From an uncultured Oscillospiraceae bacterium (GTDB lineage: Bacteria > Bacillota > Clostridia > Oscillospirales > Oscillospiraceae), in NCBI GenBank assembly GCA_944386975.1, contig CALXDC010000003.1, positions 1 through 64,000 of the forward strand: a stretch of 64,000 bases of DNA, in the 5' to 3' direction. The notes under the pieces were generated by a model that was not told the DNA's origin, ran no database searches, and saw only the letters and a program-made list of their open reading frames with translations. This document shows positions 29,921 through 36,162 of the stretch, in pieces. A program made the position numbers and the translations under genes. Positions within the stretch are counted from its first letter, which is position 1. Every line of letters begins with the position of its first letter.

Positions 29921-30304
29921 ATGGAGAAGGAGCCGGTATTGCTGTCCCAGGGGGAGTGGCAGGTGATGGAGGCGCTCTGGGAGGGACCCAAGACCCTGAT
30001 GGAGCTGGTGCGGCTGCTGAAGGATCGGGTGGGCTGGGCCAAGAGCACCGTAACCACCATGGTGCGTCGGATGGAGGAGAAGGGGCTGGTGACCTACCAC
30101 CAGGAGGGGCGGACCAAGACCTTCCGGGCGGCGGTGAGCCGGGAGGAGGCGGCCGCAGCGGAGACGGAATCCCTGCTGCAGCGGGCCTACCACGGCAGTG
30201 TGGGGTTACTGGTCAATACCCTGGCCCAGCGGGAGGCCCTCACCCGGGAGGACATTGACGAGCTATACGCCATCTTGCGGAAAGCGGAGGAGGAGGTACC
30301 ATGA
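29921..30304 (+). CDS. BlaI/MecI/CopY family repressor
   Basis: A 127-residue winged-helix protein with 'LSQGEWQVMEALWEGPKTLMELVRLLKDRVGWAKSTVTTMVRRMEEKGLVTYHQEGRTKTFRAAVSREEA', the BlaI family signature. Its C-terminal dimerisation helices include the region (about 95-105) that the M56 peptidase partner cuts in known systems. The ATG follows AAAGGAGG at 8 bases. It overlaps the M56 gene by 4 bases. Likely a repressor released by its sensor-peptidase partner. Confidence 0.92.
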   Translation: MEKEPVLLSQGEWQVMEALWEGPKTLMELVRLLKDRVGWAKSTVTTMVRRMEEKGLVTYHQEGRTKTFRAAVSREEAAAAETESLLQRAYHGSVGLLVNTLAQREALTREDIDELYAILRKAEEEVP

Positions 30305-32496
30305 GAGAGATCTTGCTGACCTCCAGTGTGCTGATTTTGGTGCTGGCGGCCCTGCGGCGGCTGCTGCGGGGGCGGATCAGCCTGCGGCTCCAGTATGCCC
30401 TGTGGCTGCTGGCGGCGGTGCGGCTGCTGGTGCCGGTGCCCATCGGCCACAGTGCCCTCAGCCTGCTGAACTGGACAGAAGAAAAAGCAGTCTATGAGGC
30501 GGCTTTGCCTGTGGAGGACCAGGGGACGGTCCCGGCGGTCCCGACGGCGCCGGAGGTCCCGGAGGCTCCCCAGACGCAGCCGGTACCCGGCGGAACGGCG
30601 GTCGGCGGCGGAGCGGTTCCCTCTTCCGTCCGAGAGGAGGGGGGAGCGCTGCTCACCTGGGTGTGGCTCACAGGCTGCGCCGGTATGGCGGCGTGGTTTC
30701 TGGCGGTGAACCTCCGGTTCCGCCGCCGGGCGAGGGCAGGGGCAGAGCCTCTGGAGGAGGACTGCCCTCTGCCGGTGTGGGTGTCGCCCAATGTACCCTC
30801 CCCCTGTCTGGTGGGGCTTGTGCGGCCCAGAATCTACCTCACCCCCGCCTGTCTGGAACGTCCCGACAGCCTCCGCCATGTGCTGGCCCACGAGGAGGTA
30901 CACTGGCGGCATAGGGACCCCTGGTGGGCTCTGGTGCGGGGGCTGTGCCTGTGCCTCTACTGGTTCGACCCCCTGGTGTGGTGGGCGGCGGACCTGTCCC
31001 GGCGGGACGGGGAGCTTGCCTGTGACGAGGGGGCCATCCGCCGCCTTGGCGAGGGGGAACGGCTGGCCTACGGCAGGACCCTGGTGGCGCTGGCGGCGGT
31101 GTCCGTCTCCCCAGGGCGGCTTCTGCAGACCGCTACCACCATGGCCGACCGGCGGGGCGGTCTCAAGGAGCGGGTAATGCTCATCGCCCAAAAGCCCCGG
31201 ATGCTGGCGGTCACCATTTTGTGTCTTCTCCTGGCAGTGGGGATCGTTGTGGGCTGCACCTTCACCGGGGCGGAGAGGGAGAGGACCCTCCAGGAGAAGC
31301 TGATGGATCTGCCGGAGGAGCTGGCGGAGGTGGTGGAGGTTCGGGAGGGAGAGGAGTTTCCCGCCTACTACCTGGCTGCCGATGATACGGAACAGGGGAT
31401 GGGGTGGCTGCTGGGGCTTGATTATCTCTCCCCGGGCGCGTTTGAGTACACCTTCTATGCTGTCGATCACAGCGGCCTTGCCCCCATCGGGCGGGACGGG
31501 GAGGGCTACTATGTGTCCGCTGTTCCCACCGATGTGCAGTATTCCAGTCCTCTGCTCCAGGAGGACTATGGAGCGGCCCAGGCCGCCCTGCTGGACTGGA
31601 CGGCGGCGGTGATCCTGGCGGAGGCGGGGGTGACGTCCTTCACCATGGAGGACGTCCGGGCGGTGGCCACCGCCCGATACACCTACCCCGGCGCCCACCG
31701 CTGGCCGGAGTACCATCCCTATCTCGCCATCAGCGGCTCCTACGAGGGGGCCATGACCTTGACCCTCTCCCAGCCGGTGAAGCAGGGGGAGGGGGGCATC
31801 TGGTGCGTGGAGCGGTGGAGCGAGGGGGACAACACCTATCTCTGGTATCCGCCGGACACCGATCTCTCCGCGGCGGAATATTACGCCCAGCTCCAGGCCC
31901 AGGCGGACGCCGGAGAGGCGGACTGGGCCCTGGACCCCCGTGAAGCTGCTCTCCGGGCTCTGGCCGCCCCCCGGATGCTGGGCAGCGCTGAGGCGGTGGC
32001 GGAGGACAGCCTCTTCGACGATCATACGGTGGAATACATGGAGGAGTGTGAGCTGTGGGCCAATCCCTCCTGGGAGACGGACTACCGGGAGGACGGCTCG
32101 GTCAGCGAGAGCGGCATGTTCGAGATCATGGGCCAGAAGATCAGCGCATTTCCCGAGGAAAAGGAGGCCTACTCCGCCTACCCGGAGAATGAGGCGGTGA
32201 TGGCCACGGGGGTGAAGTACTTCATCCTGGCCGCCTACGGGGAGGCGGACCGCTGCGACGCCATGGAGGCCCAGGCAGTGGACGAGAGCGCCCTGGTCAA
32301 CCAGCCCCTCTATAGCCGAAAGCCCCACTACATCCACGCCCCGGAGCGGCTGGAGGATGGCGCATATCGCCTCTGTCTGGACTATCTGCTGGCGGACCAG
32401 AGCGGCAGTACCCCGCCGGAGGAACGGCAGCGGGCGGAGCTGGAGATCGTGGAGCAAAACGGTCAATATCTGGTGCGGAGCTTCACCCTGTCATAA
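30301..32496 (+). CDS. M56 family (BlaR1-type) membrane metallopeptidase
   Basis: A 731-residue protein. Membrane helices lie near 5-22, 30-48 and 115-135, and the zinc peptidase motif HEEVH is in 'VLAHEEVHWRHRDPWW' (about 198-213). A further helix near 300-318 ends in a lipobox-like VGCTF. The large extracytoplasmic part (about 320-731) is not a penicillin-binding domain: no SxxK/KTG set is visible. So this is not a classical beta-lactam sensor. Its own membrane helix, outer domain and BlaI partner suggest stress sensing by proteolysis of the repressor. A Ser/Pro/Ala-rich insert (about 75-110) links two helices. Confidence 0.85.
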   Translation: MREILLTSSVLILVLAALRRLLRGRISLRLQYALWLLAAVRLLVPVPIGHSALSLLNWTEEKAVYEAALPVEDQGTVPAVPTAPEVPEAPQTQPVPGGTAVGGGAVPSSVREEGGALLTWVWLTGCAGMAAWFLAVNLRFRRRARAGAEPLEEDCPLPVWVSPNVPSPCLVGLVRPRIYLTPACLERPDSLRHVLAHEEVHWRHRDPWWALVRGLCLCLYWFDPLVWWAADLSRRDGELACDEGAIRRLGEGERLAYGRTLVALAAVSVSPGRLLQTATTMADRRGGLKERVMLIAQKPRMLAVTILCLLLAVGIVVGCTFTGAERERTLQEKLMDLPEELAEVVEVREGEEFPAYYLAADDTEQGMGWLLGLDYLSPGAFEYTFYAVDHSGLAPIGRDGEGYYVSAVPTDVQYSSPLLQEDYGAAQAALLDWTAAVILAEAGVTSFTMEDVRAVATARYTYPGAHRWPEYHPYLAISGSYEGAMTLTLSQPVKQGEGGIWCVERWSEGDNTYLWYPPDTDLSAAEYYAQLQAQADAGEADWALDPREAALRALAAPRMLGSAEAVAEDSLFDDHTVEYMEECELWANPSWETDYREDGSVSESGMFEIMGQKISAFPEEKEAYSAYPENEAVMATGVKYFILAAYGEADRCDAMEAQAVDESALVNQPLYSRKPHYIHAPERLEDGAYRLCLDYLLADQSGSTPPEERQRAELEIVEQNGQYLVRSFTLS

Positions 32497-32510
32497 GGCA
32501 TAAGAAAGAA

Positions 32511-32546
32511 GGACCGGCGGCGGAAACTTCCGCTGCCGGTCCCTTT
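32511..32546. terminator. Terminator between convergent BlaI-M56 and copA
   Basis: An about 15-bp stem (32511-32525 with 32528-32542, one G-T pair), followed by TTTT on the plus strand and by TTCTTTCTT on the minus strand, so it can serve both. Confidence 0.8.
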
Positions 32547-32560
32547 TGCCTGATGGGAGG

Positions 32561-32761
32561 TTACTGGATCTCCACCACTTCGTAGCCCGCGTCGGTGACG
32601 GCCTTGGTGAGGGCCTCGTCGCTGACGTCGCCCTGGACTGTGGCGGTGCCCGCCTCCAGATTTACCGTGGCGGTGACGCCGGGAATGCCGTTCAGGGCCT
32701 TCTCCACATGGGCCTGGCAGTGGGCGCACATCATGCCCTTGATGACCATAGTCTTTGTCAT
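32561..32761 (-). CDS. copZ: Possible free CopZ copper chaperone made by internal start within copA
   Basis: Inside copA, in the same frame, an ATG at 32761 is preceded by a perfect AAGGAGG (32776-32770) with 8-base spacing, the best kind of ribosome site. It would give a 66-residue protein, MTKTMVIKGMMCAHCQ..., with one complete heavy-metal-associated fold, the size of stand-alone CopZ. The linker just before is hydrophilic (SSQDDENKEETT) and partly encoded by the Shine-Dalgarno itself. This looks like a former separate copZ fused to copA by loss of a stop, perhaps still translated on its own. Production of the short form is inference. Confidence 0.5.
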   Translation of the reverse strand: MTKTMVIKGMMCAHCQAHVEKALNGIPGVTATVNLEAGTATVQGDVSDEALTKAVTDAGYEVVEIQ

Positions 32762-35065
32762 AGTTGTTTCCTCCTTATTTTCGTCGTCCTGAGAGGACGG
32801 GGTTTCTGTTGTCTCCTTCCAGGCGGGCTTCCAGCCCCGCAGGCGCAGGGCGTTGGACACCACGCATACGCTGCTGAGGCTCATGGCCGCGGCGGCGAAC
32901 ATGGGGTTGAGCTTGAAGGCAAAGGGCAGATAGAACACCCCGGCGGCGATGGGGATACCGATGGTGTTGTAGAAAAATGCCCAGAAGAGGTTCTCCTTGA
33001 TGTTCCGAATCACCGAGCGGCTGAGCTGGATGGCGCTGACCGCGTCCCGCAGGTCGCTCTTCATCAGCACCACGTCGCTGGACTCGATGGCCACATCGGT
33101 GCCCGCCCCGATGGCAATGCCCACGTCCGCCCGGGCCAGGGCGGGGGCGTCGTTGATGCCGTCGCCCACCATAGCCACCTTTTTCCCCTCGCTCTGGAGC
33201 TTGGCCACGCACTGCTCCTTGTCCTGGGGCAGGACCTCGGCGATGACGTGCCGGAGGCCCAGCTGGCCGCCGATGGCATCGGCAGTGCGGCGGTTGTCGC
33301 CGGTGAGGAGCACCACGTCGATGCCCATGTCCTTCAGCGCCCCGATGGCTCCGGCGCTGGTGGGCTTCACCGTGTCCGCTACTGCCAGCATGCCGAGAAG
33401 AGCGCCGTCCGCCACAAAGTAGAGGGGCGTTTTCCCCTGGGCGGCCAGGGACTGGGCCTCTCCGTCCAGAGAGGAGACATCCACCCCACGGCTCTCCATC
33501 ATCCGCCGGTTCCCCGCCAGGAGGGTCCTGCCCTCCACCACGGCCTCCACGCCGCCGCCGGGGGTGGCGGAGAAGTTTTCGGCGGCGGAGAGGGCGATCC
33601 CCTCCCCGGCGGCGTACTCTACCACGGCTTTCGCCAGAGGATGCTCACTGAGGGCCTCAGCGGAGGCGGCAAGATGGAGAAAATCGGTCTCCGACACGCC
33701 GGCGGCGGGCCGCAGGTCCGTCACCCGGGGCTTGCCCTCGGTGACGGTGCCGGTCTTGTCCAGCACCACGGTGTCGATGTGGTGGAGGATTTCCAGGGCC
33801 TCGGCGGACTTGATGAGGATGCCGTGCTGGGCGGCCTTGCCGGTGCCCACCATGATGGCCACCGGGGTGGCCAGCCCTAAGGCGCAGGGGCAGGAGATCA
33901 CCAGCACCGCGATGGCAATGGAGAGGGAGAAGCTGACGCTCTGATGCCCAAGGAAGTACCACAGCAGGCCCGCCGCCAGGGCGATGGTGATGACCGTGGG
34001 GACGAAGATGCCGCTGACCTTGTCCGCCAGCTTGGCGATGGGGGCTTTGGAGGAGGCGGCCTCGTCCATGAGGGTGATGATCTGGGAGAGGGTGGTGTCC
34101 TTGCCCACCCGGGTGGCTTCAATCTCCAGATAGCCCGCCTTGTTGATGGTAGCGGCAATGACGCTGTCCCCCTCCTCCTTCTCCACCGGCAGGCTCTCGC
34201 CGGTGATGGCGCTCTCGTCCACGGCACCGTGGCCGGAGCGGACGGTGCCGTCCACGGGGATACGGCCTCCCTGGCGGACGATGACGAGGTCCCCGGCCAG
34301 TACCTCCCCGATGGGGAGAGTCATTTCCTTGCCGTCCCGGAGGACCACGGCGGACTCCGGGGCCAGCGCGATCAGAGCGGCGATGGCCTCGCCGGTTTTG
34401 CCCTTGCTGCGGGCCTCCAGATACTTGCCCACAGTGACCAGGGAGAGGATCATCCCGGCGGACTCGAAGTAGAGCTCCGGCATGTGGGAGACATGGCCCT
34501 GGACCACGGTGATGGCGCTATAGACAATCCCGGCGGCAGCCCCCAGGGCCACCAGGGAGTCCATGTTGGGGGCCCCCTGGAAAAGACGCTTGAAGCCCAC
34601 GGAGAAGTAGGCCCAGTTGACCGCCAGAATGGGGATCAGCAACACCACCTGGGCGGCCACGAAGCGGTAGAACCCGGCGGCGCTGTCGGGGTAGAGAAAG
34701 CTGGGCAGGGGCCAGCCCATCATGTGGCCCATGGCGATATAGAAGAGAGGGATGAGGAAGACCACGGAGGTGATGAGCCGCTTTTTCATCCAGGCGATGT
34801 GCTTGGCCATGGCGTCCCGCTGGCCGTCCTTTTTGGATTGGGAGGCCAGCTCCGCGCCGTAGCCGCCTTCCACCACGGCGGCCACGATCTTGTCGGGGGA
34901 GGCGGTGTCGTCGTAGTCCACCACCATGCTGCCGTTTAAGAGGTTCACGCTGACGGCGCAGACGCCGTCCACGTGGCGGACGGATTTCTCCACATGGGCA
35001 GAGCAGGCGGAACAGGTCATCCCTGTGACGATGAATTTTTCATGGTGCAAGTTTTTTTCACTCAT
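32561..35065 (-). CDS. copA: Copper-exporting P-type ATPase with C-terminal CopZ-like domain
   Basis: An 834-residue P1B ATPase. It has an N-terminal heavy-metal domain with GMTCSAC (Cys18/Cys21), eight membrane helices with the Cu(I) signature CPC (392-394) and the TGES actuator motif (288-291). The phosphorylated Asp is in DKTGT (436-440), with HP near 517 and GDGINDAP later. Uniquely, residues 769-834 are a second heavy-metal domain (GMMCAHC, Cys780/Cys783) joined by a hydrophilic linker, so the copper chaperone is fused to the pump's end. The ATG at 35065 follows AGAAGGTG. It exports Cu(I) from the cytosol and is probably controlled by the csoR gene upstream. Confidence 0.95.
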   Translation of the reverse strand: MSEKNLHHEKFIVTGMTCSACSAHVEKSVRHVDGVCAVSVNLLNGSMVVDYDDTASPDKIVAAVVEGGYGAELASQSKKDGQRDAMAKHIAWMKKRLITSVVFLIPLFYIAMGHMMGWPLPSFLYPDSAAGFYRFVAAQVVLLIPILAVNWAYFSVGFKRLFQGAPNMDSLVALGAAAGIVYSAITVVQGHVSHMPELYFESAGMILSLVTVGKYLEARSKGKTGEAIAALIALAPESAVVLRDGKEMTLPIGEVLAGDLVIVRQGGRIPVDGTVRSGHGAVDESAITGESLPVEKEEGDSVIAATINKAGYLEIEATRVGKDTTLSQIITLMDEAASSKAPIAKLADKVSGIFVPTVITIALAAGLLWYFLGHQSVSFSLSIAIAVLVISCPCALGLATPVAIMVGTGKAAQHGILIKSAEALEILHHIDTVVLDKTGTVTEGKPRVTDLRPAAGVSETDFLHLAASAEALSEHPLAKAVVEYAAGEGIALSAAENFSATPGGGVEAVVEGRTLLAGNRRMMESRGVDVSSLDGEAQSLAAQGKTPLYFVADGALLGMLAVADTVKPTSAGAIGALKDMGIDVVLLTGDNRRTADAIGGQLGLRHVIAEVLPQDKEQCVAKLQSEGKKVAMVGDGINDAPALARADVGIAIGAGTDVAIESSDVVLMKSDLRDAVSAIQLSRSVIRNIKENLFWAFFYNTIGIPIAAGVFYLPFAFKLNPMFAAAAMSLSSVCVVSNALRLRGWKPAWKETTETPSSQDDENKEETTMTKTMVIKGMMCAHCQAHVEKALNGIPGVTATVNLEAGTATVQGDVSDEALTKAVTDAGYEVVEIQ

Positions 35066-35102
35066 AGAAACACCTTCTTTTTGCTCCCTGACGGGGCTGT
35101 CT

Positions 35103-35789
35103 TTTTTGCCGGTAGCCGACGCACGTCGGCAGGTGCTATGCCTCCGGCGGCCTACTTTTCTCGTCAAAGAAAAGTAGGCAAAAGTTGACTTAGAACCAAG
35201 GTTCTAAGGACTCCTTTTCTCCTATTATGGGAAATCTGTCCCGTTTTTTCGGCGCTTGGTTCGGCTGACCCTGCAAGGGGGCCGGAGTTCTTCTCTTTCC
35301 GCGCGACCGCGCGCTCCTCTGGTGGTTGTAGGGGCTTCTGCCTCGTTAGCCTTCCCCTGGGGGAAGGTGGCGCGAAGCGCTGGATGAGGGGAACGTCATC
35401 GAATTGCGTTAAGCCAACTCGGAGGAAAATCCAAGGATTCCGCTTGGTGTAAAATAGCTTCCGAATCAATTGGGTGCACTTCGATACCCTTTCCCTCATC
35501 CGCCCCCTTCGGGGGCACCTTCCCCCAGGGGAAGGCTTAATTAAGTCCATCGTCGCCCCAGCGCATCAGCGCGGAGCGCGGCGCTTAAAGCAGAAGACGA
35601 CCCAAATCGGCGTCACCCGGACAAAGCCTCCGATCAAAAGCCTCTCTGACAATCCGGTCTTGGTAATAAACGAAGGGAGTTCTTAGAACCGCAGGTTCTA
35701 AGTCAACTTTTGCCTACTTTTCTTTGACGAGAAAAGTAGGCCGCCGGAGGCTAAACACCAGACAGTACCCCGTCGGGTACCGGCAAAAA
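35103..35789. mobile_element. MITE-like element with long terminal inverted repeats between csoR and copA
   Basis: 35141-35210 and 35680-35750 are inverted copies, identical over about 52 bases (35141-35192 against 35750-35699) and near-identical to the ends. A weaker match continues outward to about 35103 and 35789 (TTTTTGCCGGTA...CCGAC). They flank about 465 bases without any gene. Each arm also holds a local hairpin: TAGAACC...GGTTCTA and CCTACTTTTCTC/GAAAAGTAGG. No transposase is encoded, so it resembles a non-autonomous miniature element or a large foldback. It lies in the csoR-copA interval on the same transcript path. Confidence 0.7.
35348..35537. repeat. Inner inverted repeat nested in the csoR-copA element
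   Basis: AGCCTTCCCCTGGGGGAAGGTG (35348-35369) continues to GGATGAGGG. Its inverted copy, CCCTCATCC...CACCTTCCCCCAGGGGAAGGCT, is at 35493-35537. Only a few internal bases differ. Between them are about 100 bases of A/T-richer sequence. Both arms are GC-rich and also self-complementary, and TTA/TAA flank the ends. From memory, similar 'CCTTCCCC...GGATGAGGG' repeats are scattered in gut Clostridia genomes; I cannot check copy number here. Confidence 0.65.
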
Positions 35790-35859: not shown

Positions 35860-36162
35860 TCACTTCATCAGCTTCTGCAAAAGCCCCACCAGCTCGTCGA
35901 TGACCGCATCGTCGCCGCCGCGGATGCCGTCCGCCACACAGGTTTTGATGTGGCTGGCCAGCAGCTCCTTGCTGAAGCTGTTCAGCGCCGCGTTGACGGC
36001 GGACACCTGAATCAGAATATCCGTGCAGTAGACGTCATGGTTCAGCATCTCCTTGATGCCCCGAATCTGACCCTCGATACGGCTGAGCCGGTTGTTCAGC
36101 CGCCGCAGCTCCTCCTCTTCCCGGTGCTTGTGCTTGCCGGAAGCGCAGCAGCACTCCTCCAT
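35860..36162 (-). CDS. csoR: Copper-sensing repressor CsoR
   Basis: A 100-residue all-helical repressor. Residues about 15-95 carry the family core: 'RRLNNRLSRIEGQIRGIKEMLNHDVYCTDILIQVSAVNAALNSFSKELLASHIKTC'. The copper ligands are Cys in DVYCTD, then His and Cys in SHIKTC: the C-H-C set of true CsoR. A short Cys/His-rich N-terminus (EECCCASGKHKHRE) is an unusual addition. The ATG at 36162 follows AAGGAGG. Copper binding releases DNA. It has its own operator-containing promoter and is followed by copA on the same strand. Confidence 0.94.
   Translation of the reverse strand: MEECCCASGKHKHREEEELRRLNNRLSRIEGQIRGIKEMLNHDVYCTDILIQVSAVNAALNSFSKELLASHIKTCVADGIRGGDDAVIDELVGLLQKLMK

Follow-up and report, generated by a model that had tools for sequence, protein, structure and literature searches.

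Does the copA gene on the minus strand of this window (by which we mean the whole 64-kb stretch of DNA that was analysed) encode one protein or two? The 3' end of the gene specifies a CopZ-like domain, and the linker in front of this domain holds both a Shine-Dalgarno sequence and an in-frame ATG. We propose that copA very probably gives rise to two proteins, the copper pump and a free CopZ, the latter through internal in-frame initiation. Ribosomes that start at position 35065 would read through to yield the CopA pump with its CopZ domain tethered at the C-terminus, and other ribosomes would bind AAGGAGG in the linker, start at the ATG at 32761 and yield a free CopZ of 66 residues. The free protein would then carry Cu(I) in the cytosol and pass it to the pump, with the ratio of pump to free chaperone being set by the two start sites. 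Initiation in the cell, and with it the free protein of ~7 kDa, is what we infer from sequence.

The chaperone of E. coli CopA(Z) is the N-terminal end of the pump, and the programmed frameshift of E. coli copA that gives CopA(Z) was reportedly described by Meydan and by Drees in 2017. Frameshifting in this gene had been named in the initial annotation as a precedent by another route, in agreement with published accounts in which the one copA gene yields both the pump and a copper chaperone in free form (PMC9548414, PMC7558416). The likeness to our locus lies in the origin of pump and chaperone from a single copA gene; the difference is that a frameshift gives an N-terminal chaperone there, whereas a second in-frame start would give a C-terminal CopZ domain here, the chaperone frame being the pump's own and ending at the pump's stop codon. 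In-frame internal initiation has been described for YscQ, where the C-terminal part is made as a second protein, and the flagellar relative of SctQ/YscQ uses two proteins, FliM and FliN (PMC4295842). Our locus shares with SctQ/YscQ the in-frame internal start and the (predicted) C-terminal second protein, but the proteins and their functions are unrelated, and the second protein is shown by experiment in the one case and predicted from sequence in the other. Stand-alone CopZ often shares an operon with copA (PMC7558416), and matches the nested product in domain, length, MxCxxC motif and presumed partner, although its gene is separate rather than nested within that of the pump. Pump and chaperone from one gene are therefore already known from E. 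coli copA, and an internal in-frame start would be a new route to them; CopZ made from an internal start in copA is the subject of no title or opening abstract among the matches listed, which are mostly non-subscription literature.

The copA locus and its nested frame

The features of the locus are collected in Table 1. The copA product contains E1-E2_ATPase and Hydrolase domains together with two HMA stretches, and the longer open frame that includes it (32561-35167) scores 593.8 bits against TIGR01511 (cut-off 397), identifying it as a copper P1B-type ATPase. Read on the minus strand, the junction between pump and C-terminal domain is AAAATAAGGAGGAAACAACTATGACAAAG. AAGGAGG, a spacer of 8 bases, an in-frame ATG and a 66-residue frame with GMMCAHC (6.85 kDa calculated) stand there exactly as the initial annotation had described them. 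Upstream of the internal ATG are 814 open codons in the frame of copA, and by duplex energy the internal site (-11.1) is stronger than the best candidate for copA's own start (-9.2). A simple consensus promoter scan of the minus strand between 32450 and 35400 found no site upstream of the nested frame; the single promoter-like site lies downstream of it, at 32494-32465.

On the plus strand (29921-32496), and convergent with copA, are the genes of a BlaI-type repressor (Penicillinase_R) and, after it, of an M56 peptidase protein resembling BlaR1. Between the M56 gene and copA is a strong inverted repeat (32511-32542), listed as a plus-strand terminator, which might serve both.

Table 1. Features of the copA locus and its nested copZ frame in the window
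Feature	Coordinates	Strand	Basis
copA, P1B-type copper ATPase; HMA at the N-terminus, fused CopZ-like HMA at the C-terminus	32561..35065	-	834 codons, ATG 35065
Internal Shine-Dalgarno AAGGAGG, codons AAG GAG G.. of the linker	32770..32776	-	Sequence; duplex energy -11.1
Internal in-frame ATG of nested copZ	32759..32761	-	Sequence; start and ribosome site in 247/252 junctions of relatives
Nested copZ frame, 66 residues and stop, complete MxCxxC HMA	32561..32761	-	PF00403 62.6 bits (cut-off 24.8)
MMCAHC copper-binding motif of nested copZ	32717..32734	-	Sequence, coordinates counted from the ATG
N-terminal HMA of copA, an HMA type unlike the C-terminal HMA	34859..35035	-	Tree of 95 domains
CsoR-type metal-sensing repressor, upstream of copA	35860..36162	-	PF02583 97.3 bits (frame from 36261); ATG 36162

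Within the window the motif of AAGGAGG, spacer and ATG marks starts well: AAGGAGG-N4..9-ATG was found 11 times against 1.17 expected, a number reached in none of 100 shuffles, and the remaining 10 sites begin nine open frames of 100 codons or more, plus one frame of 18 codons. The open stretch upstream of these 10 sites is 6 to 133 codons long, versus 814 at the copA site. Such a motif can nonetheless arise by accident in a linker rich in lysine and glutamate and is weak on its own, and for this reason the weight of our argument is taken from its conservation in relatives.

A CopZ-like domain at the end of the pump

The nested product is a complete HMA of the length (~66-70 residues) and with the MxCxxC motif expected of CopZ, and matches the solved CopZ chains 6ff2, 1k0v (over residues 3-65) and 2qif. 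Against NF047957, the NCBI CopZ equivalog, the 66-residue product scores 79.0, below the cut-off of 85, and is therefore called CopZ-like here rather than being assigned to NF047957. To place the domain among its relatives we used a tree of 95 HMA domains drawn from 58 hand-picked loci and 3 free domains, in which 34 N-terminal domains were split without error from 61 C-terminal, neighbouring or free ones (support 0.984). The C-terminal domain groups with separate copZ genes and apart from the N-terminal domains of the pumps, a split which indicates that it is a captured CopZ and no copy of the pump's N-terminal HMA. Two loci (L110 in G074 and L293 in G892) encode a copA with two C-terminal HMAs, where the internal ribosome site is found before the last HMA only.

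Conservation of the predicted internal start

Relatives were searched with the C-terminal 166 residues of the copA product, a query that includes the linker. Matching genomes numbered 10 of 11 in the genus, 351 of 400 in the family, 364 of 395 in the order, 255 of 293 in the class and 224 of 299 in the phylum, although a match to the query is not the same as a fusion, many of the weaker rows spanning the pump end only; from named genome contigs, the best 80 of 572 were kept. We analysed 279 loci, mostly from the tops of these lists (110 from the family, 39 from the order, 80 named, 49 from the class, and L172), with pump ends located by profile HMMs; in the class set, 10 of the 20 fetched regions had been chosen for stops inside the match. 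Left aside were G006 (a weak partial match), G001 (no match), the other weak HMA rows of the genus, and the unfetched family, order, class and phylum rows. At 10 of the 279 loci copA and copZ are separate neighbours and at 269 they are fused, giving 252 distinct junctions after the removal of 17 duplicates.

A start codon behind a Shine-Dalgarno sequence (energy of -5 or better), 9-14 codons before the first cysteine, was found at 247 of the 252 distinct fused junctions, a figure that overstates the true share since the rows are mostly best matches to a linker-containing query; the share of fused junctions without the site is probably above 2%. The start codons of the 247 are 242 ATG, 4 GTG (L062, L118, L158, L272) and 1 TTG (L144), and at 204 of the 249 junctions with any start codon the start stands exactly 11 codons before the first cysteine. 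Energies of -8 or below were reached at 96% of these 249 junctions, and at 7% of the 4598 remaining in-frame ATGs of these genes. The comparison favours the junctions somewhat, in that their value is that of whichever start codon close to the domain scored best and the controls are single ATGs; all duplex energies were computed with an anti-Shine-Dalgarno oligo. Eight of the 247 fall between -5 and -8, including L247 (from a MAG labelled Elusimicrobium) at -5.2. In strength the internal site is close to the best candidate start of copA itself (medians of -10.5 and -11.1, respectively, over 184 loci).

A scan of the phylum added 26 further loci, 4 of them separate and 22 fused, with the site in 22 of the 22; these may overlap with the 252 distinct junctions, and the two counts are kept apart. 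As in the SctQ type, a conserved internal ribosome site and start thus precede the C-terminal domain (247/252 and 22/22), which backs the internal start proposed in the initial annotation, and the predicted layout occurs in many related gut bacteria. Individual calls were corrected in three cases. For L354 the scripted start (an ATG at -7, energy -5.2) was dropped, there being by eye a GTG further upstream, behind AAAGGAG; for G059 and G101 a stop inside the match was rejected, because it lies at the frame end and not between pump and domain.

Codon-level bias towards the ribosome site

The ribosome site is found in each of the three codon phases (147, 94 and 6 of the 247) and is accordingly encoded as differing peptides (for example KKE, KGE, KGT, QGG and RRN), in linkers that range in length from 12 to 58 codons (L110 and L293, with their extra HMA, being left out). 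Codon choice at the junctions is biased in favour of the site: when the peptide was held fixed and new codons were drawn according to the usage of each gene, the simulated mean was -7.83 (sd 0.16, best of 300 draws -8.26) versus an observed mean of -10.56, while the control ATGs gave -3.22 observed versus -3.10. The fold energy of 40 bases is -1.5 at the internal start (247 loci) versus -8.6 at 986 control ATGs. Away from the internal start it settles at about -8 to -11 once the distance reaches 40 bases on the downstream side or 50 bases on the upstream side, with the caveat that A-rich linkers are weakly structured anyway.

History of fusion and loss

The past of the junction was followed on a pump-body tree, from which linker and HMA were excluded and which holds 282 of 306 loci (24 that were too short or identical were left out). 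Of these, 262 are fused with the site, 5 fused without it and 15 separate, a distribution that needs six changes: one switch between separate and fused, and five independent losses of the site. All 15 separate copA-copZ rows form one clade (support 0.998), and it follows from this single change that the fusion is old. On this midpoint-rooted tree the change between separate and fused may have gone in either direction, and transfer between lineages may have taken part. As the fusion spread to different families and orders and beyond a single class, the predicted site was kept. A search for separate copA and copZ genes with the same junction, suggested in the initial annotation, turned up such neighbours, their ribosome site standing in the corresponding position; the finding that was named there as speaking against an internal start, an old fusion without a ribosome site, was not seen, the fusion being old and its ribosome site conserved.

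Separate copZ genes where the site is lost

A separate CopZ-like frame is present in 4 of the 5 genomes without the site versus 2 of 51 with it (Fisher, 2e-4; binomial probability of at least 4 of 5 at a rate of 2/51, 1e-5), as counted with a cut-off of 40 bits on our own CopZ profile that was set after the scores were known, with frames below ~44 Pfam bits mostly unscored, and with many of the compared genomes being draft assemblies. The 51 site-bearing genomes come from two scans (24 and 27), G107, G013, G017 and G018 being omitted since a fused copA was not established in them. By our own profile, the frames in the genomes without the site are one at ~370 bases upstream of the copA frame on the same strand (G361, 73.6 bits), one at ~80 bases upstream and likewise on the same strand (G843, 45.8 bits), one elsewhere in the genome (G989, 47.3 bits) and a free copZ after csoR (G002, 111.9 bits). 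The fifth such genome, G915, showed no CopZ-like frame, solely an HMA frame of another type at 29.6 bits.

Among genomes that keep the site, CopZ-like frames of at least 40 bits were found in G168 (two) and G201 (one, membrane-anchored in appearance). The stand-alone HMA frames of the keepers came from 16 regions in 15 genomes, plus two from the window's assembly, and those scored cover the frames of at least 44 Pfam bits, save a third one in G168 (44.3 bits). By Pfam score alone (at least 45 bits) the difference shrinks to 5 of 5 site-less genomes versus 9 of 51 keepers. We decided against treating every HMA frame as a rival chaperone, because many stand-alone HMAs are of another type (DLDCANCA, 15-30 bits), and a stretch of 41.4 bits from G745 (L342) was discounted as part of a longer frame, that of another ATPase. 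In the window's own assembly (90% complete) no other CopZ-like frame was found, and two HMA frames there are weak (15.2 and 28.9 bits).

Small HMA-like proteins with a motif like DLDCANCAAKME, which are unlike CopZ (15-30 bits), were seen at L003, L332, L334-L337, L340, L343 and L345-L350. At L341 (G201:C12:7400-8400) a 126-codon frame places its HMA after hydrophobic N-terminal and cysteine-rich stretches.

The free copZ of G002, a genome of the same genus as the window, lies on contig C162 (L013, 736-1321), where csoR is followed by copZ with the same ribosome site and no copA between. Of the 8 loci searched in the genus, among them that of the window, 7 have csoR upstream of copA, and the remaining one (L018) begins near a contig end. 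Compared with nine relatives, the G002 copZ is similar over the 21-base span of ribosome site and start codon (15-18 bases shared) and in the domain (72-85%), but shares only 6-13 of 42 bases further upstream. The simplest reading would be that the pump was lost here and the internal site kept in use, although the locus, from a draft that is 76% complete, may be a misassembly.

Weighing the explanations

Taken across the relatives, we consider it fairly probable that a copper gene with two products goes back to one old fusion and has been kept by selection in Bacillota of different families and orders and of at least two classes, with a separate copZ replacing a lost start and the two starts setting the ratio of the products. 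The site could instead be a relic, in which neighbouring copA and copZ genes lost the intervening stop codon and the old copZ ribosome site survives unused, as the 15 separate neighbours on the tree, whose ribosome site stands in the same position, might suggest; yet the fusion is old, resting on one change, and the site is still found in 247 of 252 junctions although linkers have turned over, phases have changed and synonymous codons have drifted, so that we regard a relic as very unlikely. Internal Shine-Dalgarno-like stretches can pause ribosomes, and the position of this one at a domain boundary would fit a pause that lets the pump fold before the C-terminal domain is made, without any initiation. 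Such a pause, however, requires no start codon in a constant position, no replacement by GTG or TTG and no dip in structure at the start; nor does it require a separate copZ upon loss of the site or a free copZ preceded by the same site, and it is even less likely than a relic.

Less probable again is selection for a charged, flexible linker rich in lysine and glutamate, whose codons would create the ribosome site as a by-product. Both residues are common in the linker, and resampled versions of the same peptides are still fairly strong (mean -7.83), but the observed mean beats all 300 resampled sets, and QGG, KGT and RRN yield the same RNA motif in other phases. Least probable of all is that free CopZ arises by other means, either from a protease cut of the fusion or from a short internal transcript. 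Long exposed linkers can in principle be cut, but a conserved start codon and ribosome site are needless for that; as for a short transcript, the simple scan of 32450-35400 that found no promoter-like site upstream of the nested frame speaks against it, and it would use the same internal ribosome site anyway. Each of these explanations leaves at least one result unaccounted for, be it the fixed start with its GTG and TTG variants, the motif that is independent of phase, or the separate copZ upon loss of the site.

Implications

Should internal initiation in copA hold true, the supply of pump and chaperone from one gene would have arisen through at least two unrelated decoding devices, a frameshift in E. 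coli and an internal start here, and the nested copZ would be among the most widely conserved bacterial in-frame genes within genes. Because its frame and stop are common to copA, the nested copZ would be hidden from annotation, which suggests that other conserved in-frame nested proteins can escape annotation as well. The comparisons used here (change of phase, synonymous bias, and a separate gene where the site has been lost) offer a recipe for similar cases. For those gut Clostridia that show no separate copZ, the internal start would offer a route to a free copper chaperone.
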